Of a stretch of DNA of 43,177 nt, positions 3,063-43,177 are shown one piece after another. The position numbers were made by a program, and so were the translations under genes. The stretch spans positions 1-43,177 of the forward strand of contig CAJWYM010000023.1 in NCBI GenBank assembly GCA_913049555.1, read 5' to 3'. Positions within the stretch are counted from its first letter, which is position 1, and the number at the start of each line of letters is the position of its first letter. The notes beneath the pieces were generated by a model that saw only the letters and a list, made by a program, of their open reading frames with translations, was not told the DNA's origin and searched no databases. The DNA is from an uncultured Opitutia bacterium. GTDB lineage: Bacteria > Verrucomicrobiota > Verrucomicrobiia > Opitutales > CAJWYM01.

Positions 3063-3839
3063 ATGTGTCCTTCTATGTTTAACTTAAAAAACTACCCCGT
3101 TATGCATTCTCCATTTTTCTTTCTATCTCTATTCTTAGGCATAGGGTCTTTTTGCTGCCTGCTCGCTCAGAACAATCCTATTTCTCCTCTTGCTTTACCG
3201 GATAAGATGGTTGAAGCGAAGATACGAATTTACTGTGAACCCTCTCTATCAGGGAGTTATCGAGGGATAGAGACAAAATCCAGCATCGCGGGACTCATAT
3301 GGGTGGCGGGTAAGGAGTTTTTGGAATCAAAAAAAGTGGATTTGCAGGTCAATTCATCTAAAAATTTATTGAATTATAAAGGATCTCCCACTTTTTCACT
3401 TTATAAACTTGGAGAATTGCTTCCTAAAAAGAAGATTGCCTCTTGTGAATTAGATCTAGAGTGGAAGTCTGTTTTCATTGTGATGATTCCTAATATGAAT
3501 GGAGGTTATTACATGAAACCAATCAACTTGGGTGATGAGGCTTTTGTCTCAGGAACGGCTCAGCTGATTAATTTTTCTGCGGAAACGCTTTCTTCAAATT
3601 TAGGGGGGTCGACAATAATTACGGAGGCAAACGGAACGAATCTAATTTCTTTGAAACACGTGAAAAGTTATGAATTCCGTATGTTGCATGCGATTGAAAA
3701 CAAAAACAAACCTCAAAATTGGCGACTGATTGTTTCTAAAAATGTAAATGCTCGCAGTTCAGATAGGGTTTTAATTTATATTTACAGAAAATTCGGCAAT
3801 CGAGGTCCTTGGAATTCAAAAATCATATTGAACCCATAA
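3063..3839 (+). CDS. Exported hypothetical protein upstream of the protein A cassette
   Basis: I do not recognise this family. I chose the ATG at 3063; an in-frame TTG lies two codons upstream at 3057, and ATGs at 3075 and 3102 are alternatives. The N-terminus has a hydrophobic run (FFFLSLFLGIGSFCCLL) ending near AQNN, which reads as a Sec signal peptide. The mature part (about 220 residues) is polar, with alternating hydrophobic residues suggesting a beta-rich fold, and ends KIILNP. It lies 19 bases before the giant pseudopilin-like protein, on the same strand, so it is probably co-transcribed with it. By position it could be a structural partner of that protein in the periplasm or outer membrane; this is inference from neighbourhood only. 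Confidence 0.75.
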   Translation: MCPSMFNLKNYPVMHSPFFFLSLFLGIGSFCCLLAQNNPISPLALPDKMVEAKIRIYCEPSLSGSYRGIETKSSIAGLIWVAGKEFLESKKVDLQVNSSKNLLNYKGSPTFSLYKLGELLPKKKIASCELDLEWKSVFIVMIPNMNGGYYMKPINLGDEAFVSGTAQLINFSAETLSSNLGGSTIITEANGTNLISLKHVKSYEFRMLHAIENKNKPQNWRLIVSKNVNARSSDRVLIYIYRKFGNRGPWNSKIILNP

Positions 3840-3858
3840 TTCTCTTTATTTTCCTCAT

Positions 3859-6800
3859 ATGTTCTCTCAGAAAAAGACAATTTTGACCAAAAGTGGATTC
3901 GCCTTAATGATCTCTTTGATGGTTATGAGTTTGATCTTGGGATTGATTCTTGCCATGACCTCTATGGTGCGCGTAAGCACTCAAGAAGCGATCCACAAAA
4001 AAGCAATCGCTGCAGCTGAAAAGAATGCTTTGTTTGCAGTTCAGGAGGCGATTGGATACCTTCAAAAACTTACGGGTCCAGATCAAAGAGTCACTGCAAC
4101 GGGTGAAAATTACAGTTCGGACAGAGAGCGGAAAAATTGGACGGGTGTTTGGGATGCGAATCCAAATTCAGCTCAATACACTGAAAATATTGGGTGGTTG
4201 AATGGCAATACGCTTTCTTCTTCCAAACAACTCAAACAAACCGTCGATTTCTTGAGGCCCACTGAAAATCAGCTCTCCTTGAAGCAAAACTTTCATTCCC
4301 TCTTGAATGAGATGGAGGAAAGTGAGGGAGGATTTGCATGGACGGTCTTGGATGAGGGAGTGAAGTCTAAGATCAATCCAAGATACTTGGAGGATTACTT
4401 CAAAAATGAGGCTCAGAGGCCTTTTATTCCTGGGGATTTCGGGGGGAGTAAAATCTTGGGATCTGCAATCAGCCAGTCAGACAAGTTTAAGATATCCCGC
4501 TTATTTGATCTAGCCCAATTAGAGAATGGTTTGAATTTAGAAGGGATTGAAAGCAATATGGAAGAGCTATTCAATCATTTTACGGTCTCTTCTCTGGGAG
4601 TGCTGTCCAATGTCAAAGAGGGGGGCCTGAAAAAAAACCTCAGTGCAGCCTTCAGCTCCGACGATGCTTTCGAAGAACTGCTAGATTTTGCCGGTGAAGG
4701 CTCGGCAGGGGACAGTGTATTTGCTCCTTTGAATCCATCCAACAATCCTTTGGATGATCCAGGGGGTCCTCAATGGAGCCAAATGAGGTCCTTCTATCAA
4801 TCTTCAGCTTTGATTCAAGGCGATCGGGTTTCCATGAGAGTGCCTTCGGACTCTGAAAGTGGGATCTCTCCAGTGCTTGCTCAAATGAGATTGTTTGTCT
4901 ATGCAGGTTTGGTTCAAAAACCAGCGGATGCGACTCGGTTTGACTTGTATTGGTTTTTTATACCCTCCATTGCATTGTGGAATCCTTACGACGTAACCCT
5001 AGAGATTCCTGATCTTTATTTAAGAGCGTTTGAACCGAACCGGGATCCTCTTTCAGTGAATGGAATGGGTCAATTTTTTTATGGTGCGGAAGCAATTGGC
5101 AAGGTTCCCGGAAATGACAGTTCCTTTTTGGGGCAAGAAGTCAATAAACCGACTTTTAGTGAATCCGTGAAATGGGTTATAAATAATAGGATAAAATCTA
5201 TCGATGATTTGAAAGCGAAACCTTTTAAAGATGGAAGTTATGGGGCTGGAGATGCAATTCTTCCCCATGAACCTTTTAAGTTCAAGATCCCTGCAAGTTC
5301 CATAGCACCCGGTCAAGCAATGGTGTTTGGCTTGCGTGAAAATAAAGAACTTAGAGACAACCCAGATTCAAATGAGTTGATGGATGTTTTTGCGAATGGG
5401 AACAGTTACAACAATGGTTTTGGTTTTTATAGAAAAACTTCTTCTTGGATTGAGTGGAACCTTGGAGATTATGACTTGTGGTTGGTTTTGGGAGGCCAAG
5501 GAGATCTGTATGAGATGACTTGGGAGTTGAATACAAATAAGGATTTTGCGAACGATACTGTAGTCCAAAGGGTCAAAGATACTTCTATTTGGGGCTTGGT
5601 TAAAAATGGATACAAACTGACTTCTAATTTTTATGAAGCTCCTATGTTTGCAAGGGTGGATGCCACAATGCCTATTCCTCTTTGGGATGCTGTGGCTGGG
5701 AAAACCGTGGACACAACCCGATACCCCGCTTTTGGCTACTCCTTTTCCTATATTTTCCCGAACAATTCTTTGGATGAATTTACAGGACAAAAAATGATTC
5801 AATGGTTGGCTCAACACAATCCTAGAGCGGCTTATGGTGGGAAATCTCCAATGGCAGTTGGTAAATACCAATCGATCGATTGGACTACGGATCGTGGAAT
5901 TGATCAACAAGCGACTTACTATGGAACCTTCACTACCGATCCTAGTTGGAGTGAGGTTCAAATCAATGCATTTGCGGATGGTGCTGCATTGGGAACTACG
6001 GATCAAACCTATGGGCATCCAAGAGCCGTTTTGTTTACCGTCCCAAGAGAGGAGCATGCTTTTGCATCTATCACGGATTTTACCCACACCAATTTCAATA
6101 AAAATTATGATTATGATAATTTCCCAAATTATGGGACTACCCGACGTCTGTACAACAATTATCAACCGGCTTATCCTATTGGTAATTCATTTGTAGATGC
6201 CAGAATTCCTAACCATTTGACTCGAATACAATGGGCGGATCATCCAGAAAATGTGAAGAAACAGGACGAATTGACCAGTCACCATTACGACTATTCTTAT
6301 TTGTTGAACGAAGCTTTGTTCGATCGTTTTTTTACCAGTTCTTTAAATTTTAGTGACAGTCAAGGATCCAAGGAACTTGCTTTTCCATTAAAAAACACCC
6401 GGCTCATTTCTTTTGGTTCGGAAAAAAAGGCACTTTCAGAATTAAGAGATTTTAACAAGGCAGCTGAGAATCTTATGGTGGATGGCAGCTTGAATATCAA
6501 TTCTATGTCCCATGTTGCTTGGGAGTCTTTATTCAGTGCTTATTTATCCGTGGATTCTATTGAAACCCATGAGGGTAGAAATTCAGTCTCAAAAGAAGCG
6601 CCTTATTCTCGCTTGAATTTACCCCTCCATGGCAGTTCTGGCAATTTTGATCCAGATTCCAATCAAGAAGCATTTTCTGGATTTCGCTGTCTTAGCTCCG
6701 ATGAAATTTCTAAGTTGTCTACAATTGTAGTTCAAGAAATCAAGGAGACCAAAGGGGGTAAATTTCCATTTTTATCTATGAGCGAATTTGTCAATCGAGA

Positions 6801-7209
6801 TCCTTCTAGCAACCAAGAAAATTATCGAGTTCGTGGACTTTTGCAAAGATCGATCGATCGAGCTGGGTTGAATGATCATTTTTCCGGTTTGGGATACGAT
6901 GTAGATCCAAATACCGAATATTTGAACGATTATCCAGAGGGGAACTGGCAAGGTTCTGTGCATGCGGGAGTGCCGGGTTATTTGATGCAATCGGATTTGT
7001 TATCCAAGCTGGATAGTAGGATGAGTGTTCGTTCGGATACCTTTACTATTCGGGCTTCGGGGATCTTTAGAGACCCTGTCAATGGAGAAATTTTAGCAGA
7101 AAAAAAATGTGAGGTCTGTGTGCAAAGAACGCCTCATTTAGTGGATGAAGCACGGAGTAGTTCGGAGAGAAAGTATGAGATTGTTCGTTTCAAGTGGTTG
7201 GGACTTTAA
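3859..7209 (+). CDS. Giant pseudopilin-like protein, Verru_Chthon cassette protein A type
   Basis: A 1116-residue protein. Its start shows KSG-FALMISLMVMSLILG (residues 11-28), a prepilin-like cleavage site followed by one membrane helix, without the Glu5 of major pilins; this resembles the GspK/PilX type. It is followed by an A/K-rich helix and a GYLQKLTGPDQRVTATGE segment (residues 66-83), then NWTGVWD. That combination is the hallmark of the Verrucomicrobia-specific 'Verru_Chthon cassette protein A' family, whose function is unknown. The long remainder is rich in Asn, Asp, Gly and aromatic residues and is presumably extracytoplasmic. Cassette proteins B, C and D (short prepilin-like proteins) are not adjacent. 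No good Shine-Dalgarno precedes the ATG. The downstream sulfatase starts one base after its TAA, implying translational coupling. Confidence 0.8.
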   Translation: MFSQKKTILTKSGFALMISLMVMSLILGLILAMTSMVRVSTQEAIHKKAIAAAEKNALFAVQEAIGYLQKLTGPDQRVTATGENYSSDRERKNWTGVWDANPNSAQYTENIGWLNGNTLSSSKQLKQTVDFLRPTENQLSLKQNFHSLLNEMEESEGGFAWTVLDEGVKSKINPRYLEDYFKNEAQRPFIPGDFGGSKILGSAISQSDKFKISRLFDLAQLENGLNLEGIESNMEELFNHFTVSSLGVLSNVKEGGLKKNLSAAFSSDDAFEELLDFAGEGSAGDSVFAPLNPSNNPLDDPGGPQWSQMRSFYQSSALIQGDRVSMRVPSDSESGISPVLAQMRLFVYAGLVQKPADATRFDLYWFFIPSIALWNPYDVTLEIPDLYLRAFEPNRDPLSVNGMGQFFYGAEAIGKVPGNDSSFLGQEVNKPTFSESVKWVINNRIKSIDDLKAKPFKDGSYGAGDAILPHEPFKFKIPASSIAPGQAMVFGLRENKELRDNPDSNELMDVFANGNSYNNGFGFYRKTSSWIEWNLGDYDLWLVLGGQGDLYEMTWELNTNKDFANDTVVQRVKDTSIWGLVKNGYKLTSNFYEAPMFARVDATMPIPLWDAVAGKTVDTTRYPAFGYSFSYIFPNNSLDEFTGQKMIQWLAQHNPRAAYGGKSPMAVGKYQSIDWTTDRGIDQQATYYGTFTTDPSWSEVQINAFADGAALGTTDQTYGHPRAVLFTVPREEHAFASITDFTHTNFNKNYDYDNFPNYGTTRRLYNNYQPAYPIGNSFVDARIPNHLTRIQWADHPENVKKQDELTSHHYDYSYLLNEALFDRFFTSSLNFSDSQGSKELAFPLKNTRLISFGSEKKALSELRDFNKAAENLMVDGSLNINSMSHVAWESLFSAYLSVDSIETHEGRNSVSKEAPYSRLNLPLHGSSGNFDPDSNQEAFSGFRCLSSDEISKLSTIVVQEIKETKGGKFPFLSMSEFVNRDPSSNQENYRVRGLLQRSIDRAGLNDHFSGLGYDVDPNTEYLNDYPEGNWQGSVHAGVPGYLMQSDLLSKLDSRMSVRSDTFTIRASGIFRDPVNGEILAEKKCEVCVQRTPHLVDEARSSSERKYEIVRFKWLGL

Positions 7210-7210
7210 A

Positions 7211-8776
7211 ATGAAAGTAGATTCTATGAATTATAAATTAATGATAAGGCTTGTTTTCTTGGTGAGCTCGATCTGTCTATTCACACTGGGTTTTGCCTTT
7301 GAAAAAAAGGGTAGACCCAATATTTTATTTTTGACTCTGGATGATATGAATTGGGATTCCATGGGTGTGTATGGATCGAAAGTCCCAAAAATTACTCCTC
7401 ATATGGATGCTCTAGCCAAAAAAGGGCTTCGTTTTAAGTATGCGTATGTTCAATCTCCAAATTGCTCTCCATCCAGAAATGTTTTCCAGTCCGGTCGTTA
7501 TCCCCATAACTCGGGATTGGTTGGTTTCTATAATGTGCAACCAAGTTTTAAGACACTGCCGGAGCAGTTGAAAGAGAATGGATACATCACTGCGGTTCTG
7601 AATAAGCCTAGGGATTCCAGTATGCACGGTGATTATGATCAATTCTGGGATCACCATGAGATCATGAAAGCGGACAGGAAGCGAGATGCAGCCAGTTACA
7701 AAAGGGTTTTTGAAGATTTTCTAGAGAGGGTTCGTGAGGACAAAAAGCCTTTTTATTGTGTGGTCAATGTTGCAGATCCTCACAAACCTTTTTTTGGAGA
7801 AGCCGCTTCTAAAAAGGAGGGTATGGATGATTTTGAGCCCAGTAGACTTTACAAGACGAATGAAGTTGAAGTTCCTCCTTTTTTACCTGAGGCCAAAGAG
7901 ATTCATCAAGAAATCGCGGATTACTACAATTCTGTAAAGAGAGCCGATGATTGCATTGGAAGTGTATTAGAGGCATTTAGGGAAAGTGAATTTAAGGAGA
8001 ATACAATTGTCATGTTGGTATCCGATCATGGGATGGCTCTACCATTTGCTAAGTCTTCTTTGTATCCAAATGGGGTGCGAACCCCTTGGTTAGTGACTTG
8101 GCCAGGGAAGATCAAGCCCAATACTGTGGAAAAAAGGCATATGATTTCGGCCATTGATTTTATGCCAACGATATTAGATCTTTGCGGAATCGATCCGGAT
8201 CCAACTGTGGATGGTAGGAGTTTCCTTCCTCTGATTCAAGGAAGAGAACAGGCAGGACGCGATAAAGTATTTGTCCAATTTAATGAAAATGCAGGGGGGA
8301 ATCCTTCCCCAATGAGAGCCGTAATTACCAAGAAATATTGTTACGTTTTCAATGCTTGGTCCAATGGGGAAAGAGCTTTTATGTCGGCATCTAACTTTCA
8401 TACTTCTTACAAAAAGATGAAAAAAATGGCGGCTACGGATCCTAAAATAGAGGCCAGATTCAATCATCTACAGAAGCGATCTGTGGAAGAATTGTATGCG
8501 ATTGATAAAGATCCTCATGCTTTGAAAAATCTGATTGATAAATCAGTTTATAAGTCAATTGTGAAGCAGTTGCAAAGCACCTTGGAGAATTGGATGAAAG
8601 AGAATCAGGATCCTGCACTAGATGCTTTTCTTATCAAAGAGGATCCCGAAAAACTGAATGCTTGGTTTATGGCTGAAGATAAATCGGCAGAGCTTAGGGC
8701 CCAAACGATCCAATGGAAACGATATAAAAATCGGGCAGGGGGAACGGGTAAAAACAAAAAACTTTTTATCAAATAA
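7211..8776 (+). CDS. Exported sulfatase 1 (SGSH/sulfamidase-like, S1 family)
   Basis: Type I formylglycine sulfatase with active-site motif C85-S-P-S-R89, metal ligands in LDD (44-45) and SDHG (272-273), and K132 and K281 in the positions expected for sulfate binding. The VADPHKPFF segment (188-195) and SLYPNGVRTPWLV (283-295) resemble human N-sulfoglucosamine sulfohydrolase and related bacterial enzymes (S1_8-like), so an N-sulfo or similar glycan ester is a possible substrate; this remains a family-level guess. I placed the start at the ATG at 7211, one base after the previous stop; a longer frame opens at 7145 inside protein A, and ATG 7226 is an alternative. A signal peptide (LMIRLVFLVSSICLFTLGFAF) indicates export. 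No formylglycine-generating enzyme is encoded in the window. Confidence 0.9.
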   Translation: MKVDSMNYKLMIRLVFLVSSICLFTLGFAFEKKGRPNILFLTLDDMNWDSMGVYGSKVPKITPHMDALAKKGLRFKYAYVQSPNCSPSRNVFQSGRYPHNSGLVGFYNVQPSFKTLPEQLKENGYITAVLNKPRDSSMHGDYDQFWDHHEIMKADRKRDAASYKRVFEDFLERVREDKKPFYCVVNVADPHKPFFGEAASKKEGMDDFEPSRLYKTNEVEVPPFLPEAKEIHQEIADYYNSVKRADDCIGSVLEAFRESEFKENTIVMLVSDHGMALPFAKSSLYPNGVRTPWLVTWPGKIKPNTVEKRHMISAIDFMPTILDLCGIDPDPTVDGRSFLPLIQGREQAGRDKVFVQFNENAGGNPSPMRAVITKKYCYVFNAWSNGERAFMSASNFHTSYKKMKKMAATDPKIEARFNHLQKRSVEELYAIDKDPHALKNLIDKSVYKSIVKQLQSTLENWMKENQDPALDAFLIKEDPEKLNAWFMAEDKSAELRAQTIQWKRYKNRAGGTGKNKKLFIK

Positions 8777-8820
8777 TCGGGGCTTTTCATAAGACCAAAT
8801 GGAAGAATGTTTTCCTATCC

Positions 8821-8855
8821 TCAATCATTATAAAAAAGTTTCAATCACTTTAAAA
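8821..8855 (+). repeat. Imperfect 15-bp direct repeat, 20-bp period, upstream of sulfatase 2
   Basis: TCAATCATTATAAAA (8821-8835) and TCAATCACTTTAAAA (8841-8855) match at 13 of 15 positions and start 20 bases apart, about two helical turns. They end 19 bases before the ATG of sulfatase 2. Tandem direct half-sites of this spacing suit AraC-type or two-component regulators; binding is inferred. Confidence 0.4.
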
Positions 8856-8874
8856 TTACGGAAAAACAAAATAT

Positions 8875-10698
8875 ATGAATACAAAATGCAAACGATTGTT
8901 TTCAATGCTCTGCTTGAGCACTTTACTCTTAAATACAATAGCTTCTGAGAAACCGAATATCGTTTTTATTATCTCGGATCAACACAAGCTTAAAGCAGCT
9001 GGTTGTTATGGAGATCCCCTCGCCATCACTCCTCACTTGGATCAACTGGCAAAGCGTGGAGTTCGGTTGAACAATTGTTATGTCAATGCTCCCGTATGTG
9101 CGATGAGTCGGGCTTCTTACATGACGGGTATGGAGCCATATGTCAATGGAGCGATCTATCACAAAGCTCCCGTCCAAAAGAATGGAAAAGAGGTAAGATT
9201 GGGAGCCGGCTTTTTGAGAGAGACAGGGTATCATAAAGGGATTACTACTCTGGCACAGGTATTTCGCAATCATGGATATTTGACTGCAGCACCAGGCAAA
9301 ATGCATGTGCATGGAGAGTTGCAGAAAAATATAGATCCCAAGTTTCCAGAGGGCAATGATCTCGGTTTTGATGAAATTAGTTTGAGGTATTATACGAATT
9401 TCCCAGGGGGTCATTATTCCGATGTTGTGGGTGTGGACACTTATCACAGATACAGACAACTGAAGGGTTATAAAAGTTCAGGGGGTGTGGACAACCTGAA
9501 TACTAATTATCTGGCTACCCATGTGGTCGAGGATGAGGAAAATTATGATATGGTAGTCACCCAAAAGGCGGTGGATTATCTTAATAAAAGAGGTGCGGAT
9601 AAAAAACCATTCTTCTTGCATGTGGGTCTCGAGAAGCCGCATCCGCCTTTCACGACTGCTCAAAGATATCTAGATCTCTTCAATCCAGAGGACTTTGAAT
9701 TGCCGGAAACCTATGATGAATGGTATACAAAGGGAAAGTTTCCTTGGAGTCCTGATTGGATCCACAGTGGATTGCCAAAAAACAGTCCAAAAAAGGCTAA
9801 GAATGCGATCGCCTCCTATTATGCCTGCGTCACCCAGGTGGACGATATGGTGGGACGAATTGTGGAATCTTTAAAAGAGAATGGTTTGTCGGAGAATACG
9901 ATCGTTATTTACACAACGGATCATGGAGAGCATTTGTTTGAGCACGGTTATCGAGGAAAACACAATATGAATGAAGCTTCTGTGAATGTGCCTTTTATTA
10001 TTTCTTACCCGAAAGAATTGCCGCAGAATACAACCAACAATTCTTTGGTGAGTTTAGTAGATTTAATGCCTACGTTTTGTGAGATTTTTGACTGGGAAAT
10101 TCCTTCAAATGCAACAGGCCAATCTTTTTATGGGATTTTGCAAAGTGGGGCCATGAAAAAGGACAGAACCGTTTACTGTGAGTATCGGTCTGGCAACTAT
10201 AAGGCTTTCCCTAAGGAGAAAGATTTACCCTCAAGAATGGTTCGAAGAGAGGATTTTAAATACATTTATACTCATGGGATCATCGATCAATTTTATCAGG
10301 TCGAAAAGGATCCAAATGAGCTGGAGAACTTGGCCTTCTCTCCTGAGTATGAAAAGTTAGTCAAGAAATGGAGGTTTCAAGCTTTGGCAGATTGGAGATT
10401 CCCAGATTATTATCCAATGAAATTTGAAAAGGTTGATGGCATGCTTCGCTGGAATTCTTTTGAAGGAGGTGCCACCTCTTACACCCTCCATTACAGTAAA
10501 GACAGCAATCCTTTGAATGCTGAAATTGTCAAGGATTCGATCGGAACAAACTCTGTTGATATTCAAAAACCCGGATATTATTGGGTCACTGCCAATCCTG
10601 ATTATACAAGAACTGTAAAGCGTTTTGGAGAAAGACCGGTTCTTCTTCAAAAGCATTCTTACCAGTTGCCCGTTACAGATGCTGTATGGATCCAATAG
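8875..10698 (+). CDS. Exported sulfatase 2 with atypical C-A-M-S-R active site
   Basis: A 607-residue S1-family sulfatase. Metal-site residues appear in ISDQH (33-37) and YTTDHGEH (346-353); the GKMHVHGE block (141-148) and K362 fit the sulfate pocket. The formylglycine motif is C75-A-M-S-R79: the usual Pro or Ala at the third position is Met. The first 23 residues form a signal peptide (LFSMLCLSTLLLNTIAS). After the catalytic domain, residues of about 515-607 look like a fibronectin-III-like module (LRWNSFEGGATSYTLHY), which may aid substrate contact. It is paralogous to sulfatase 3: both share HVGLEKPHPP, a following QR-(Y/F)-x-DL stretch and the same overall order. A 98-base gap with a direct repeat separates it from sulfatase 1, so it may have its own promoter. 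Confidence 0.9.
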   Translation: MNTKCKRLFSMLCLSTLLLNTIASEKPNIVFIISDQHKLKAAGCYGDPLAITPHLDQLAKRGVRLNNCYVNAPVCAMSRASYMTGMEPYVNGAIYHKAPVQKNGKEVRLGAGFLRETGYHKGITTLAQVFRNHGYLTAAPGKMHVHGELQKNIDPKFPEGNDLGFDEISLRYYTNFPGGHYSDVVGVDTYHRYRQLKGYKSSGGVDNLNTNYLATHVVEDEENYDMVVTQKAVDYLNKRGADKKPFFLHVGLEKPHPPFTTAQRYLDLFNPEDFELPETYDEWYTKGKFPWSPDWIHSGLPKNSPKKAKNAIASYYACVTQVDDMVGRIVESLKENGLSENTIVIYTTDHGEHLFEHGYRGKHNMNEASVNVPFIISYPKELPQNTTNNSLVSLVDLMPTFCEIFDWEIPSNATGQSFYGILQSGAMKKDRTVYCEYRSGNYKAFPKEKDLPSRMVRREDFKYIYTHGIIDQFYQVEKDPNELENLAFSPEYEKLVKKWRFQALADWRFPDYYPMKFEKVDGMLRWNSFEGGATSYTLHYSKDSNPLNAEIVKDSIGTNSVDIQKPGYYWVTANPDYTRTVKRFGERPVLLQKHSYQLPVTDAVWIQ

Positions 10699-10886
10699 AT
10701 AAAAACTCTAAGCTACTGATGAATTTTCTCTTTGAATTCTGCATTTCAATCGATTTCAAACTTAATAAAAATTTGCTTATGAATTCTTTGGAATTCTTAA
10801 AAGTTTCTCATGCAAAAATATTGCCTCTGATTCCCTTTTCAGACTGCATCTTAAAAAAGGCCTCTTGGACAGAAAATTCCCTATCT

Positions 10887-10893
10887 AAGGAGG
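10887..10893 (+). promoter_or_regulatory. Strong Shine-Dalgarno that fixes a TTG start
   Basis: AAGGAGG lies four bases before TTG at 10898. An in-frame TAA at 10886-10888 excludes any upstream start, and the nearby ATG at 10908 is out of frame. This site therefore supports the short, signal-less N-terminus of sulfatase 3. Confidence 0.7.
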
Positions 10894-10897
10894 TCTT

Positions 10898-12715
10898 TTG
10901 AAAAAAAATGTGGTAGTGATTGTTTCGGATCAACATCAGGAGAAGGCGATGGGGTGCTCAGGTCATCGAATCGTAAAAACTCCCAATATAGATGCATTGG
11001 CCGAGTGCGGCGTGCAATTCAATCGTGCCTATTGTGCTTCTCCGCTTTGTGCTCCCTCAAGAGCGGCTTACATAACCTCCAGTTTACCGCACAGAAACTC
11101 AGCAATGTATCATATTCATAAAATAGAGGGAGAAGCTACTGCCAGTGGATTTCATCGCTTTCCTGGAATCAAGGAGGAATTTACAAGCATGGGTGATTAT
11201 TTCAAGTCGCATGACTATGCAACGGCTGCTATAGGAAAAGTTCATGTCCATGGGGAAACGAGAGAATATGATCTGGGCTTCGAGACTCGAATGCTTCGTT
11301 TCTATACCTATAATTTTGAAGATTATGAAGAGGCTGTATCAGAGGGAGATTCTGCCCTTGGCAAGAGAAAGCGTCTTCAATATACCTCAAGGGGTGAAGA
11401 GGGTTTTCCTTATGACTACAGTTGGACTGGCCAGTATAATAACTTGGACGATCGATGTCCGGCAGTGATTGAGACGATGACAGAAAGTTGTTTGGAGGAA
11501 AGGGATATGTTTGATGTCCTGACTACAGAGGCCTCTCTTAAATATATTGAGCAGAACAAGGAAAAGCCGTTTTTACTTCACGTCGGTCTTGAGAAACCCC
11601 ATCCACCTTGGACTGAAGTGCAAAGATTTATGGATTTGTATTCTGCTGAGGATATTGAGGACGATGCTTTGCCTCTAGCTTGGGATGAGGAAAATCGATC
11701 GTTTCTAATGGATTGGTTGCAAGGAACTCCCACAAAAGAAAAAGTCAAAATCGCTCAGGCTTCCTACTACGCAAATATTACTTCCTTGGATGAAAAAGTG
11801 GGCAAAATCATTCAGAAACTGAAAGATGAAAACCTCTTCCACAATACCATTGTTGTCTATACCAGTGATCATGGTGAAATGTGCTATGACCATGCACAAA
11901 TAGAAAAGCATTGCATGTATGAATCTTCGGTAAGAGTGCCTTTAATCCTCTCAGGACCTTCTTTGCCTCAAAATAAAAAGATTCACCGACCGGTTTCTTT
12001 AATAGACTTATTGCCAACATTGGGGGAGCTCTGTGAGCTGGAACCTGCTGAAAGTTTTGAGGGAGAATCTGTCGTCCCTTATTTACAAGATGAAAAAGGA
12101 TTGGATGAGAAATGGATTTACTGTGAGTTCACTCAAGTGGGTTACTCCTCACACCCTCAGGGTTCGGGAAGGAGAGTTCCGATGCGAATGGTGCGAAACG
12201 CTGATTATAAATATATTTACACCCATAATTTACCGGATCAGTTGTATGAGGTGGACAGTGAGGAGATCTATTCCAAAGACAATTTAGCTGCAACTCATCG
12301 AGGGGTGGTTCAATCCATGAAGGCGATGGCTCTAGCGGGATGGCACAGTGATGGGATGTTAAAAAAACATTCCGAGGAGTTAGATATTGAAGATTTACTC
12401 GGGGACAATCATCTGAAGTTTAACTTATCGAATCAGGAAGGCAGAATTAAAGTTCTTCTTGTGCCTGTATCGGAACCTGTAAAGACTTGGGATTCATTTT
12501 TGGAAAAATTAGTAAGCCAAAAAATTAGGAAAATAAAAATATTTGTGGGTGCCGAAAATCATTTTCACAAAGCACAACTATTGAGGACTGTAGAAATTTG
12601 CAATGAAGATAAAATCGAGATTTTATTGAGTCCTAATCCATCAGAATCTTATGCTTGGCTAGTCGCTGAAAGTGAAGATTCAACCCTCTCTGCCTCCAAA
12701 GAAATCAAACTATGA
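10898..12715 (+). CDS. Sulfatase 3 without signal peptide (predicted cytoplasmic)
   Basis: A 605-residue S1 sulfatase with complete catalytic motifs: VSDQH (9-13), C51-A-P-S-R55, GKVHVHGE (113-120) and YTSDHGEM (321-328). The protein begins MKKNVVVIVSDQH, so the first beta strand of the fold starts at residue 4 and no export signal exists; the in-frame stop at 10886 rules out a longer form. The start codon is TTG with a strong Shine-Dalgarno. It is a paralogue of sulfatase 2 (shared HVGLEKPHPP and flanking blocks). The C-terminal 80 residues (KVLLVPVSEPVKTWDSF and onward) differ from sulfatase 2 and are unrecognised. A cytosolic location implies uptake of sulfated oligosaccharides or monosaccharides before desulfation. 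Its stop overlaps the start of sulfatase 4 by ATGA. Confidence 0.9.
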   Translation: MKKNVVVIVSDQHQEKAMGCSGHRIVKTPNIDALAECGVQFNRAYCASPLCAPSRAAYITSSLPHRNSAMYHIHKIEGEATASGFHRFPGIKEEFTSMGDYFKSHDYATAAIGKVHVHGETREYDLGFETRMLRFYTYNFEDYEEAVSEGDSALGKRKRLQYTSRGEEGFPYDYSWTGQYNNLDDRCPAVIETMTESCLEERDMFDVLTTEASLKYIEQNKEKPFLLHVGLEKPHPPWTEVQRFMDLYSAEDIEDDALPLAWDEENRSFLMDWLQGTPTKEKVKIAQASYYANITSLDEKVGKIIQKLKDENLFHNTIVVYTSDHGEMCYDHAQIEKHCMYESSVRVPLILSGPSLPQNKKIHRPVSLIDLLPTLGELCELEPAESFEGESVVPYLQDEKGLDEKWIYCEFTQVGYSSHPQGSGRRVPMRMVRNADYKYIYTHNLPDQLYEVDSEEIYSKDNLAATHRGVVQSMKAMALAGWHSDGMLKKHSEELDIEDLLGDNHLKFNLSNQEGRIKVLLVPVSEPVKTWDSFLEKLVSQKIRKIKIFVGAENHFHKAQLLRTVEICNEDKIEILLSPNPSESYAWLVAESEDSTLSASKEIKL

Positions 12716-14745
12716 AGAAACATATTTTATCAAAAACTTTAATATTGATTATTTTTACCCAATTAGTTGCATTGTTCGGAACTGAGAAAAAGCCAGACAT
12801 TGTATTTATATTATTAGATGATTTAAGATACGATGCGATGTCTTTCATGGATCATCCTTATATCCAGACCCCGAACATGGATCAGTTGAGAGCAAGAGGT
12901 GCTTGGATTAAGAATGCTTTTGTGACCACTTCTATATGTTGTCCCTCAAGAGCCAGCTTTCTTACAGGTACTTATGCGAGTAGGCATGGGGTCATCGACA
13001 ACGAAACTGCCGAGTACGATCCTGAGATTACTCCCCCAGTCTCCATGTATTTGCAAGAAGTGGGATACAAAACAGCGATGATCGGAAAGTGGCATATGGG
13101 ATACTCTGGCAGTCCGAGAAAGGGCTTCGATCATTGGCTCAGTTTTGAGGGGCAAGGGGTTTATAACAATCCAACTTTTAATATCAATGGTGTAGAGTCT
13201 ATGTTCTCAGGCTACACTACAGATCTTCTAACCGATCATGCGATCGAATTTATCAAAGAACAAGACAAAGAGAAGCCCTACTTTTTGATGTTGTCCCACA
13301 AAGCAGTTCATGAGCCTTTTAGACCGGCGATTCGTCATAAGAAGGCTTTCGGGGAAGGGTTGAAGGATCAGGAACCTTTGAGTTTTTCTTCTGATTTTAA
13401 AGGAAAACCTCTATGGCAAAGGCGTCAGCGTGTAAAAGATGTTCGGTGGCACTGGAGGACGAAGGATCGAGAACAAGAATCGATCCCAGAGCGGATCGCT
13501 CAAGAGGACTTTGGAAAAAGAAGTAAATATGTGGATCAACTTCGATGTGCGGCCGCTGTCGATGAAGGAATTGGAAAAATTTTAGAAACTTTAAAGAAAA
13601 GAGGATCTTTGGAGAATACTTTAATTGTCTTTTCAAGTGACAATGGTTACTTCCATGGGGAGCATCGTCGCTGGGATAAGAGGCTTGCTTATGAGGAAAG
13701 TCTACGTATCCCAATGCTGATTTCTTATCCAAAGCTGATTGCTGAAAATTCTACGGTGGATGGAATGGTTAATAATATAGATTTTGCTCCTACCATTTTG
13801 GAGTACGCGGGCATTCGTATCCCGGAACAGATGCAAGGTCTGTCTATAAAGCCTCTCTTGGAGGGAGAGAAGGAATCTTTGCGTGAAGAGGTGTTTTATG
13901 AATATTGGACGGAGCTTGTGCATTCAATTCCGACGATGACTGCGCTTCGAACGGATCGGATCAAGTTGATTTCTTTTCCTGAGTTGGAAGACATTGATGA
14001 ACTCTATGATCTGGAGAAAGATCCGCATGAAATGACAAATCTGGTTCAGCATCCGGAATATTCTTCGGTGTATGAGAGTATGAAAAAGAGGCTTCAAACT
14101 AAGATTCAAGAGGTGGGTTGGAGAGCCGATGTGTTCCCTCATAATTTAGAAAGATTTCGAGGAGAGCGAGGAACTTTGTTTCAATTGACGAGCTCCAATG
14201 GAAAGATCTTGGACGGTGCTCAGGGTAGGAATGATTTGAGTATAAAGAATGTTGAATGGAATCAAGGGGCATTCGTTTTTGACGGACAGAGTTCGATCAC
14301 AGTTCCTTTTTCAAAGACGGAGGATCCTTCACAATGGCCCTTTCATTTAGAAGTAGAATTCTATGCTGAAAAGGATGGTGTTCTTGCTTTCCAAGCGAGT
14401 AAAGGTTATGGCTTTAAACTGTTTGTTGAAGAGGGCCGCCCAGGAGTTTCCACGCTTGCAAAAACTTGGGTCGCCACGACAACGACGATTGATGCGGTCG
14501 ATACCGTGATTGGAGAATGGGCTCATGTTGAAATACTGATTGATTACAACCGATTGTCGATGTGGCTGAATGGTGAGTTGGTGGATACAATGGCTCTGCC
14601 TCTTCCGTTAAAACATTATACACACAAACCTCTCCTAATTGGTTCTGGAAATACGATTGATGGATTTGGCGATTTGCCAAAAAATGGATTTGAGGGAAAA
14701 ATTAAGAATTTCTCTATTTCTAGGAAATTAAAAAAACCTCTTTAG
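12712..14745 (+). CDS. Exported sulfatase 4 (GlcNAc-6-sulfatase/S1_11-like) with LamG-like C-terminus
   Basis: A 677-residue sulfatase. The signal peptide covers about residues 5-23. Motifs are LLDDLRYDAM (34-43), C76-C-P-S-R80, MIGKWHMG and SSDNGYFHGEHRRWDKR (D310, N311 as metal ligands). The blocks 'GYTTDLLTDHAIEFI' and 'LSHKAVHEPF' recall N-acetylglucosamine-6-sulfatase/S1_11-type enzymes, but substrate is not proven. Residues of about 520-672 form a concanavalin/LamG-like domain (VFDGQSS, GEWAHVEILIDYNRLSMWLNGE), a likely carbohydrate-binding addition. Its ATG overlaps the TGA of the previous gene, so the two are translationally coupled although one product is exported and the other is not. 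It is the last gene of the block and converges on the nuclease-like gene 27 bases downstream. Confidence 0.9.
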   Translation: MKKHILSKTLILIIFTQLVALFGTEKKPDIVFILLDDLRYDAMSFMDHPYIQTPNMDQLRARGAWIKNAFVTTSICCPSRASFLTGTYASRHGVIDNETAEYDPEITPPVSMYLQEVGYKTAMIGKWHMGYSGSPRKGFDHWLSFEGQGVYNNPTFNINGVESMFSGYTTDLLTDHAIEFIKEQDKEKPYFLMLSHKAVHEPFRPAIRHKKAFGEGLKDQEPLSFSSDFKGKPLWQRRQRVKDVRWHWRTKDREQESIPERIAQEDFGKRSKYVDQLRCAAAVDEGIGKILETLKKRGSLENTLIVFSSDNGYFHGEHRRWDKRLAYEESLRIPMLISYPKLIAENSTVDGMVNNIDFAPTILEYAGIRIPEQMQGLSIKPLLEGEKESLREEVFYEYWTELVHSIPTMTALRTDRIKLISFPELEDIDELYDLEKDPHEMTNLVQHPEYSSVYESMKKRLQTKIQEVGWRADVFPHNLERFRGERGTLFQLTSSNGKILDGAQGRNDLSIKNVEWNQGAFVFDGQSSITVPFSKTEDPSQWPFHLEVEFYAEKDGVLAFQASKGYGFKLFVEEGRPGVSTLAKTWVATTTTIDAVDTVIGEWAHVEILIDYNRLSMWLNGELVDTMALPLPLKHYTHKPLLIGSGNTIDGFGDLPKNGFEGKIKNFSISRKLKKPL

Positions 14746-14772: not shown

Positions 14773-15789
14773 CTAGGAGGACAATTTGTATTCTCCCGTC
14801 TTGGGATTTTTTTTCAGTTCAAGGTAAGGCATAGAACTGCTCTCGGTCGTAAAAGTAATTTTATTGTTTGAGATTTTGGCAGATCCCTTAAGATTCACGC
14901 TTTTGCTGTGAATAATTTTGTAAGTAGCTACCAAGTGTCTGCTCATGTTGTAAAATTCATCTTCTTTTTCTGTGAAATCAAAAAATAGGGTGGGTATGTT
15001 GTGTTTTTTGAGCTCGGTATGAATTTTAGTGGGCGTGCTTTGTAGAATTCGGTATTGCTTGAATTTTGGTATAAATAAATGTTTTTGCTCGGAGAATAGA
15101 ACATAAGTAAAGTCCGCATCCGTAAAGAGTTTTTTTAGAGGAACAAATAAATGAGAGTATAAGTTTGGAATATCCAGATCAATTTTTCCTGCTTTGCTTT
15201 CGAGGATAATAATGTGTCTTTTATTGCCATATCGATAGTCAAAAATACCATCTAAATCTGTAATGTGTTGGTAGCCCCATTTGCCACTGCCTGTTTTTTT
15301 AAGAAGGATCATGTTTGGATACTTACCAATTTTTAGAACGATATCTTCGGCATTCGCGACGATAAAACCCTCTCTTTCTTTCGGGTTGAATTCATTGTTA
15401 AACAAACCACCCAATTTTCCATAGCCCTGATCGTAGGTTTGAAGAAATCGCTTCATAATTCTTCTGGAAACGCGTTCTGCTAAATCTCCTCTAATATTGC
15501 TTATTCCCTCTTTATTAAAGGGGTACGCTGCATCTAAAAGGTCGGCAACCGTATAGATGTCGTAGTTTAGTTGATCAATCGTGTAAGTGAGCAATTTTTT
15601 TTCGGTGAAAGGAAGCTCTTTGTTGATGGGATGATTGATATGATGATAGTTTACTCTAGGGCGAAAGTGATGGTTCTGGGTGATTGAGTATGCATTTTTA
15701 TTTTTACCATGAAACTCCCAATGAAAGGGAAAAAATTTTAAAAATGGACTGTCCCAAGCGACTTTTTTTGTATCAGATTCAGTATTCAT
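14773..15789 (-). CDS. Uncharacterised protein with PD-(D/E)xK nuclease-like motif
   Basis: I do not recognise a named family. I use the ATG at 15789; the frame also allows a TTG two codons upstream at 15795. In the 338-residue product, a helix GDLAERVSRRIMKRF (from residue 101, Glu105) precedes a strand-turn-strand with D178/D180 in TDLDGIFDY and E197-S-K199 in IIILESKAGK. The pattern Glu, then Asp, then about 16 residues, then E-x-K is that of PD-(D/E)xK phosphodiesterase folds. No helicase, methyltransferase or DNA-recognition domain is visible. It has no signal peptide, is rich in Lys, His and Tyr, and stands alone between a sulfatase and the MOSC gene. It could be a solo endonuclease, a restriction or defence enzyme, or an inactive relative. 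Confidence 0.75.
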   Translation of the reverse strand: MNTESDTKKVAWDSPFLKFFPFHWEFHGKNKNAYSITQNHHFRPRVNYHHINHPINKELPFTEKKLLTYTIDQLNYDIYTVADLLDAAYPFNKEGISNIRGDLAERVSRRIMKRFLQTYDQGYGKLGGLFNNEFNPKEREGFIVANAEDIVLKIGKYPNMILLKKTGSGKWGYQHITDLDGIFDYRYGNKRHIIILESKAGKIDLDIPNLYSHLFVPLKKLFTDADFTYVLFSEQKHLFIPKFKQYRILQSTPTKIHTELKKHNIPTLFFDFTEKEDEFYNMSRHLVATYKIIHSKSVNLKGSAKISNNKITFTTESSSMPYLELKKNPKTGEYKLSS

Positions 15790-18054: not shown

Positions 18055-19851
18055 GTGTTTCTAAACTTTATCAAGTTTTTTAAAAATAATTGCGATCTTG
18101 TTTTCAAATGGATTGTACTTTTTGCTTTTTTTAAAGTATGCCTAGTTTTAAATGCCCAAAAATTTGAAGATATTGCACCAATTCCTTTAGAATCAGTGGG
18201 CTCTGTCGGGGACATTTATTTGGATCCAGATTACTATACAAGCAGCTTGAATGAGGAATCTCCTGCGCTATTAGACAGTTTAAATGGGGTTGTTTTTGTT
18301 AATAGTTTCGACGATATTGTTAAAGAGGGTCGAGAAGATTTGAATATCGTAATTGAGGATATTCCTATTCTTCAAAATGAAGTTTTTAAAAGCCGAATCA
18401 TTCCCCTTATTGGTCAACCTGTGAATCTGAAACTATTGGATGAGATCACCAATGAGGTCGTGCTTCATTTTCGAGAAAACAAACGACCGGTAGTCGATGC
18501 GATCATTCCTGAACAAGACATTCAAACAGGCACGATTCAAGTTTTAGTTCTTCAATCGAAGCTAGGACAAGTAATTGTTGAGAACAATCGTTACTTTTCT
18601 CAAGATCTTTTACTTGGTAAGTTAAGAATTAAAAAAGGAGAGGAACTTGATTCTGCAATTCTAAAGGAAGATTTGGAATGGATTAATGAAAATCCTTTCC
18701 GACAAGTGGATCTTGTCTACAGTCGAGGAGAAAATTCTCAAGAGACAGATATTACATTGAATGTTCGAGAAAAGTTGCCTCTTCGAGTGTATGCAGGTTA
18801 TGAAAACAGTGGCAATGAAGCTACGGGTTTAGACCGATATTTAGCTGGTTTTAACTACGGAAATGTTTTTGGCTTGGATCATACAATCAGTTATCAATAC
18901 ACCACCTCGTCGGATTTGGATAGGTTGACAGGGAACTCTATTACCTACGATATTCCGATCTCTCCCACCTCTAAAATTAATATTCTGGGAAGCTTTGCGG
19001 AGAGTCATTTGATGTTTGAGGATTCACTTGGTTTGGACGGTCGTAATTGGCAACTGGGGCTTAGATACACAAAGGAATTGAGGAATCTGGGCCCTCTAGA
19101 GCATTCAGTCAATTTTGGATTCGATTTTAAAGAGAGTAAGTCAGAAGTGATCATTTCTGGTTTTGCTGCCGATGAAAATACGACCCATATCAACAACTTT
19201 GTTTTCGGATATTATGCAAAATTGAGCGATCCTTTGGGAATTACAAGTTTGTCTACGAATTTATTTTACAGTCCAGGAAATCTAACGGATAAAAATAATG
19301 ATTTACAGTTCGGAGGGCCCACTTCAAATGCGAATGGATCAGCAATTTCATTCGATCCAAATTCTCAAGCAAATTATACCTATGCTAAGATTGGCTTAGA
19401 TCGTAAAACTCGATTGCCTTTCTCCTTTATTTGGAATGTTCGTGCGGAATATTTACTCACTTCAACGAATCTTTTACCCTCTGAGCAACTGACCCTTGGG
19501 GGCAGCAATACAGTTCGTGGATATCAAGAGGCTGAGTCCAACATGGACACAGGTTACTGGATCAACACTGAAATAGTGGCCCCAGGGTTTTCGCTGGGTA
19601 AAATGTTTAAAAGTAAATGGAACGATGAGCTGAATTTATTGTCGTTTTTTGATTATGGATCAGGAAGGAATAAATTTAAAACTGAGGGAGCGGTCAATGA
19701 TTGGGAAATGTATAGCTCCGGATTGGGGATGCGCTATTTGGTAAATCCGTATTTTAACATGAATATGAGTTGGGGATATCAACTGAAAGATTCCGTTCTT
19801 TATCCTGACGATCGTGAGAGAGCCCACATCAGTATTTCATTGACCTATTGA
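18055..19851 (+). CDS. TpsB/FhaC-type outer-membrane transporter (POTRA + beta barrel)
   Basis: A 598-residue outer-membrane protein. The start is GTG at 18055 with AAGGGAAG just upstream. A hydrophobic signal peptide ends near LNAQ. Residues of about 75-245 carry POTRA-like modules (ENKRPVVDAIIPEQDIQTGTIQVLVL is cut here to show VDAIIPEQDIQTGTIQVLV, typical of ShlB POTRA_2), followed by a barrel beginning LRVYAGYENSGNEATG. The conserved V-R-G-Y motif of the Omp85 lid loop is at about 487-490 (SNTVRGYQEAE), and the protein ends with an aromatic-terminated strand (ISISLTY). Such proteins export a TpsA partner exoprotein in two-partner secretion; none is adjacent, so the substrate must be encoded elsewhere or has been lost. 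Confidence 0.88.
   Translation: MFLNFIKFFKNNCDLVFKWIVLFAFFKVCLVLNAQKFEDIAPIPLESVGSVGDIYLDPDYYTSSLNEESPALLDSLNGVVFVNSFDDIVKEGREDLNIVIEDIPILQNEVFKSRIIPLIGQPVNLKLLDEITNEVVLHFRENKRPVVDAIIPEQDIQTGTIQVLVLQSKLGQVIVENNRYFSQDLLLGKLRIKKGEELDSAILKEDLEWINENPFRQVDLVYSRGENSQETDITLNVREKLPLRVYAGYENSGNEATGLDRYLAGFNYGNVFGLDHTISYQYTTSSDLDRLTGNSITYDIPISPTSKINILGSFAESHLMFEDSLGLDGRNWQLGLRYTKELRNLGPLEHSVNFGFDFKESKSEVIISGFAADENTTHINNFVFGYYAKLSDPLGITSLSTNLFYSPGNLTDKNNDLQFGGPTSNANGSAISFDPNSQANYTYAKIGLDRKTRLPFSFIWNVRAEYLLTSTNLLPSEQLTLGGSNTVRGYQEAESNMDTGYWINTEIVAPGFSLGKMFKSKWNDELNLLSFFDYGSGRNKFKTEGAVNDWEMYSSGLGMRYLVNPYFNMNMSWGYQLKDSVLYPDDRERAHISISLTY

Positions 19852-43121: not shown

Positions 43122-43177
<56 letters not shown>

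Follow-up and report, generated by a model that had tools for sequence, protein, structure and literature searches.

What is a giant pilin-like protein doing directly in front of four sulfatase genes? This question was raised by a locus of an uncultured Opitutia bacterium (Opitutales), located in the window analysed here, which is the whole 43,177-nt stretch of contig CAJWYM010000023.1 (assembly GCA_913049555.1). Sulfated algal glycans are hard to degrade for most bacteria, and, to our knowledge, their capture by Verrucomicrobiota is largely unknown. At positions 3063–14745, the genes for a companion protein, protein A and four sulfatases follow each other closely, all on the + strand. The analysis indicated that the locus consists of ordinary sulfatases beside an unnamed, widespread module, formed by A and its companion.

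The companion (TTG 3057 or ATG 3063 to 3839, + strand) is a 258-aa protein with a Sec-type signal peptide, encoded upstream of A, in agreement with the exported companion that the original prediction had described. Protein A (1116 aa) is encoded at 3859–7209 (+) with its stop codon at 7207–7209, and sulfatase 1 starts at ATG 7211, one base past the end of A as had been stated. The four sulfatases expected downstream of A all matched PF00884, with E values of 3e-49 to 2e-55. According to their sequences, sulfatase 1 (7211–8776, +; 3e-49) possesses a signal peptide and a C-S-P-S-R site, and sulfatase 2 (8875–10698, +; 3.5e-55) also has a signal peptide. Sulfatase 3 (10898–12715, +; 2.8e-51 from residue 3) has a TTG start, a C-A-P-S-R site and no visible signal peptide, and sulfatase 4 (12712–14745, +; 1.5e-55) has a signal peptide, a C-C-P-S-R site and a C-terminal Laminin_G_3 domain (PF13385, 2e-8). 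Accordingly, the C-x-P-x-R site is present in sulfatases 1, 3 and 4. In sulfatase 2, this formylglycine motif is replaced by C-A-M-S-R. The intergenic gaps from the companion through A to sulfatase 4 were 19, 1, 98, 199 and −4 bp, the last being the 4-bp overlap of sulfatases 3 and 4. A consensus scan placed a terminator-like hairpin, followed by a T run, just 3' of sulfatase 4 (14794–14806, +), and such hairpins were no more frequent than in shuffled sequences. Because the hairpin and T run directly follow sulfatase 4, it is plausible from the sequence that the companion, A and sulfatases 1–4 form a single transcription unit. Elsewhere in the window, a two-partner secretion transporter of the ShlB/FhaC type, containing POTRA domains, is encoded at 18055–19851, and a tRNA gene at 43122–43177, missed by ARAGORN but matched in Rfam with 32.8 bits, is truncated where the contig ends. 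The 3.1-Mb draft genome as a whole gave about 118 sulfatase matches.

The identity of A was examined with family models. The original prediction had labelled it a "Verru_Chthon cassette A" protein (TIGR02600), and this label had to be abandoned. A is like that family in its length, pilin-like N-terminus and phylum, but the NCBIfam model matched only residues 13–74, the pilin helix, and the score of 17.3 bits is far from the cut-off of 332.3. No A paralogue in the same genome reached the cut-off, and the tested A homologues also scored far below it. Members that passed the cut-off were rare, being found in 7 of 240 genomes of the phylum. When the profile of 73 A homologues was compared with that of seven true TIGR02600 members, 80 N-terminal columns were aligned with a probability of 97.5%, and the alignment ended after the pilin helix. 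On the score and this alignment, membership in the family was rejected. That A is a diverged cassette protein A, as the match of TIGR02600 to its N-terminal 60–80 residues might suggest, is thus highly improbable. Cassette proteins B–D had been called missing. Indeed, none of them adjoins A, and no NCBIfam match to B, C or D was obtained among the ten window proteins scanned; this is not a loss, because the locus is not that cassette. The description of A as Verrucomicrobia-specific fits the titled records among the best 80 loci (Verrucomicrobiota/PVC, with one "Bacterium") and extends as far as those loci.

Modelling of A with AlphaFold2 (mean pLDDT 80, pTM 0.85) pointed to another family. 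GspK is the protein that caps the pseudopilus, or "piston", of type II secretion. In VIA-align, the top four matches of the model were XcpX (6utu, 5vtm), GspK (3ci0) and the XcpGHIJK filament model (9a1f), with Z scores of 14.6, 14.4, 14.1 and 13.6 over 219–254 residues, compared with 3.8 for the next match. The likeness was exposed only by VIA-align re-ranking, as a plain Foldseek search of whole A against the PDB returned nothing (best E 1.2). The predicted fold follows that of GspK/XcpX (3ci0, 5vtm, 6utu), beginning with the N-terminal helix and ending with the C-terminal strands, and A shares with these proteins a G^F-type cleavage site and the lack of Glu5. Unlike them, A is three to four times longer, occurs in multiple copies outside gsp operons and is paired with a secreted companion. 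NCBIfam T2SS_GspK matched 17 of 26 A homologues below the cut-off, N-terminally where the range was shown; for NF037980 the homologues gave at most 31 bits, short of the curated cut-off of 130. The window protein itself had no match to NF037980 or to Pfam, including T2SSK, and hhalign of A with two GspKs of its own genome covered the helix alone. Sequence profiles linked A to no solved structure. PF03934 was also tried as a GspK marker and rejected, as most of the inspected matches listed were in long ORFs unlike pseudopilins. The GspK identity of A rests on the predicted model, because sequence similarity is undetectable beyond the helix.

In the model of A, an unbroken pilin-type α1 helix of 59 residues (residues 14–72; 3898–4074, +) stands right after the cleavage site G13/F14. 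The motif of this class III cleavage site was held by 68 of the 73 A homologues, with G at −1 in 62 and F at +1 in 68, and position +5 was mostly I, V, A or L with no Glu5. The lack of Glu5 in A fits a capping subunit, because the subunit that caps the minor-pilin complex at the tip of T2SS and T4P filaments is Glu5-less (PMC10191384). The C-terminal part (residues 860–1116; 6436–7206, +) is conserved and would close the GspK-like fold, with the GspK alignments reaching residue 1115/1116 and with invariant residues N879/N881/S882/A887/W888 and R1058/D1060/F1062. Between them, residues 390–720 (5026–6018, +) are variable and partly of low confidence (stretches with pLDDT <50), and they are a candidate ligand-binding part; the majority-residue fraction was 0.20 there, compared with 0.46 in residues 1–170 and 0.49 in residues 860–1116. 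Together, the pilin helix, the cleavage site and the predicted fold bear out the view of A as pseudopilin-like. The model is strong evidence for placing A among the minor pseudopilins of GspK fold, as a giant member that is larger by about 800 residues. In type IV pili, there are modular pilins onto which adhesive domains have been grafted (PMC10191384). For instance, PilB and PilC of Streptococcus sanguinis are minor pilins with a large extra module and a proposed adhesive role at the tip (PMC10191384), as A may be, but the extra mass of A is inserted inside a GspK-type fold and is not a known grafted adhesive domain.

The second question was which gene is the constant partner of A. In the gene calls of nine Opitutales genomes, a companion lay within two genes of A at 47 of 53 loci, with a median gap of 4 bp. 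On the same strand, it was downstream at 42 of these loci and upstream at 4, and one locus had divergent copies. A profile search added at least three companion loci missed by the ORF selection, which brings the count to about 50 of 53. The genome of the window contains 12–13 A loci, depending on whether two pieces cut off at the edges of contigs C46 and C94 belong to a single gene. Among the titled genome records of the best 80 loci, the pair was found in Opitutales relatives, Akkermansiaceae and one Kiritimatiellota isolate, and Akkermansiaceae also had many A copies on their own. Across 46 genomes, the match counts of the companion followed those of A (rho 0.81). Moreover, the more two A paralogues of a genome differed, the more their companions tended to differ as well (rho 0.39, against a mean of 0.07 in permutations; 0/1000). 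This within-genome co-divergence indicates that A–companion pairs stay together, and does not by itself prove contact. It is A together with the companion that is conserved as a unit. Multiple copies of this unit are found in single genomes across Verrucomicrobiota, about 12 of them in the genome of the window. No description of this module was found in the open papers searched, and no name for it in the family libraries searched. Some Akkermansia copies had other surroundings. In three MAGs (L163, L164 and L186), a companion-less A follows proteins of about 960 and 490 aa in the same order; in L164, the former matches PEP-CTERM weakly and contains a Chlamydia PMP repeat, and the latter is GH18-like. 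In Akkermansia glycaniphila Pyt, three A genes are clustered, with a companion after the last.

The companion of the window matched the profile of its family significantly (E 3e-21). The family comprises secreted proteins of about 220–310 aa and has no Pfam entry. The AlphaFold2 model of the companion (pLDDT 85) is all-beta, with two domains after the signal peptide, and had the PepT2 ectodomain as its nearest match (Z 12.7); among viral models, it matched DUF4397-annotated proteins (Foldseek E 2e-7). Its sequence profile gave only weak matches to solved structures, namely designed proteins and cysteine synthases. Neither the companion nor A showed a recognisable carbohydrate-binding domain.

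The relation to sulfatases was then considered. The survey of gene neighbourhoods that had been suggested as a check showed that the link to sulfatases is not random. Of the 253 module neighbours, 26 were sulfatases, and of the 301 control-window genes, 12 were (10% vs. 4%; Fisher P = 0.004). The control windows were taken from the same genomes; most lay on contigs that carry A, and A itself was present in some, so the test is conservative. In the Pfam-scanned sample, the numbers were 14 of 105 and 5 of 115 proteins, respectively. In the genome of the window, a sulfatase lay no more than 5 kb away from 9 of 13 A loci, or from 8 of 12 if the two contig-edge halves are one gene, whereas 26% would be expected (P = 0.001–0.003). 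The proposed coupling of A to sulfatases was thus right as to a physical, non-random link, but the conserved partner of A is the companion and not a sulfatase. The other neighbours were varied. The 47 closely spaced same-strand neighbours (same-strand runs with gaps up to 100 bp) included GH5, GH78, GH13, GH94, GH130, GH2, an esterase and the sugar transporter families MFS_2 and SSF, and transporters and regulators were also among the module neighbours. SusC/SusD families were absent from the 25 commonest neighbour families of the general survey.

Across all 46 genomes, the number of modules correlated with that of sulfatases, counted as first-look candidates (rho 0.50), and genome size correlated with both. 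In genomes of at least 2 Mb, the two were unrelated (rho 0.21, P = 0.21). For instance, one genome combined about 7 sulfatase candidates with 18 modules, and another had 312 candidates and 2 companions. Some relatives with 140–300 candidates had no or almost no modules. A sulfatase-specific role of the module was rejected on the unrelated counts in genomes of at least 2 Mb. Sulfatases are enriched beside the module, yet they are not its specific partner. Its varied glycan neighbours and the unrelated counts tie the module primarily to glycan loci, and less to sulfatases in their own right. The same unrelated counts in genomes of at least 2 Mb, together with the very diverse neighbours, the many Akkermansiaceae copies without an adjacent sulfatase and the fact that just some of the loci have enzyme genes close by on the same strand, would also fit a general adhesion or surface module carried along in variable catabolic islands, with sulfatase proximity reflecting island content. 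This explanation is rather unlikely; the enrichment over same-genome control windows and within the genome of the window speaks against it, as does the 1-bp spacing between A and sulfatase 1.

The genome also encodes T2SS/T4P machinery: one prepilin peptidase, secretins, several extension (assembly) ATPases, and, on contig C38, a GspG-to-GspF operon with its own GspK of 373 aa. A second, partial operon has another GspK. Protein A is not encoded together with G, H, I and J in a gsp operon; in the C38 operon, the GspK is the small one. At a paralogous locus on contig C22, the order is companion, A, a mini-secretin gene and then at least four sulfatases. The mini-secretin gene (L054:12394–13509) matched Secretin_N (1.8e-12) and Secretin (1.2e-6).

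We tentatively prefer, at a probability somewhat short of even, the explanation that A and the companion form a locus-specific tip of a pseudopilus or pilus, which would engage the polysaccharide of the neighbouring locus. After trimming by the prepilin peptidase, A would take its place in the minor-pseudopilin tip of a filament, either a pseudopilus or a type IV-like pilus, that the T2SS/T4P machinery of the cell itself assembles. The variable ectodomain of A and a bound companion would sit at the tip and engage the substrate of the neighbouring locus, here probably a sulfated polysaccharide. The polysaccharide would then be brought to the enzymes encoded alongside, presumably from the same transcript. 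In favour of this tip are the GspK-like fold, the cleavage site without Glu5, the conserved ends and variable middle of A, the conservation and co-divergence of the module, its enrichment at glycan loci, the machinery in the genome and the mini-secretin gene of the paralogous locus. Against it count the lack of sequence similarity to GspK past the helix, the predicted nature of the fold, the small GspKs of the same genome, the lack of a recognised carbohydrate-binding domain, some A genes, mainly of Akkermansiaceae, without companion and sulfatases, and the module number that does not follow the sulfatase number. Since the genome already holds small GspK genes, A need not sit at the tip. A related proposal exists for the phylum. 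The MUL2 type IV-like pilus (amuc_1099–1102, one of whose proteins is PilM and another pilin-like) has been linked to glycan attachment in Akkermansiaceae (PMC13174399). Like A, MUL2 comprises pilus-type proteins with a proposed part in glycan attachment in Verrucomicrobiota, but it is a different gene set, and the description consulted mentions no giant GspK-fold protein (PMC13174399).

The main rival to a glycan-capturing tip is enzyme export, besides the island-borne adhesin. A would then be a cargo-specific tip with which a shared T2SS recognises and pushes out the neighbouring enzymes, such as the sulfatases. The GspK fold of the A model and the T2SS operon agree with this, and the minor-pseudopilin complex of T2SS contacts secreted effectors (PMC10191384). 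In addition, sulfatases 1, 2 and 4 have signal peptides, and the mini-secretin gene adjoins A in the paralogous sulfatase locus. However, sulfatase 3 has no visible signal peptide, some sulfatase-rich relatives have almost or entirely no modules, and transporters and regulators also adjoin the module. Export by such a tip was accordingly judged improbable, to about the same degree as the adhesin. In either form, the tips may serve polysaccharide loci; capture of the glycan is the likelier way and export of cargo the less likely one. Both forms sharpen the idea of the original prediction that the structure might display or export the enzymes or bind the polysaccharide.

A and its companion may therefore be an undescribed, locus-specific surface device for polysaccharide handling. 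The phylum-wide, many-copy GspK-fold giant and its secreted partner, enriched at glycan loci, provide concrete candidate genes and proteins. It is possible, though somewhat unlikely, that Verrucomicrobiota use at least a dozen exchangeable, locus-encoded giant pseudopilus tips, each with a secreted partner, for substrate capture at polysaccharide loci. If so, the single piston cap GspK would become part of a diversified family, and the exchangeable tips would be a retractable counterpart of SusD-type glycan binders.
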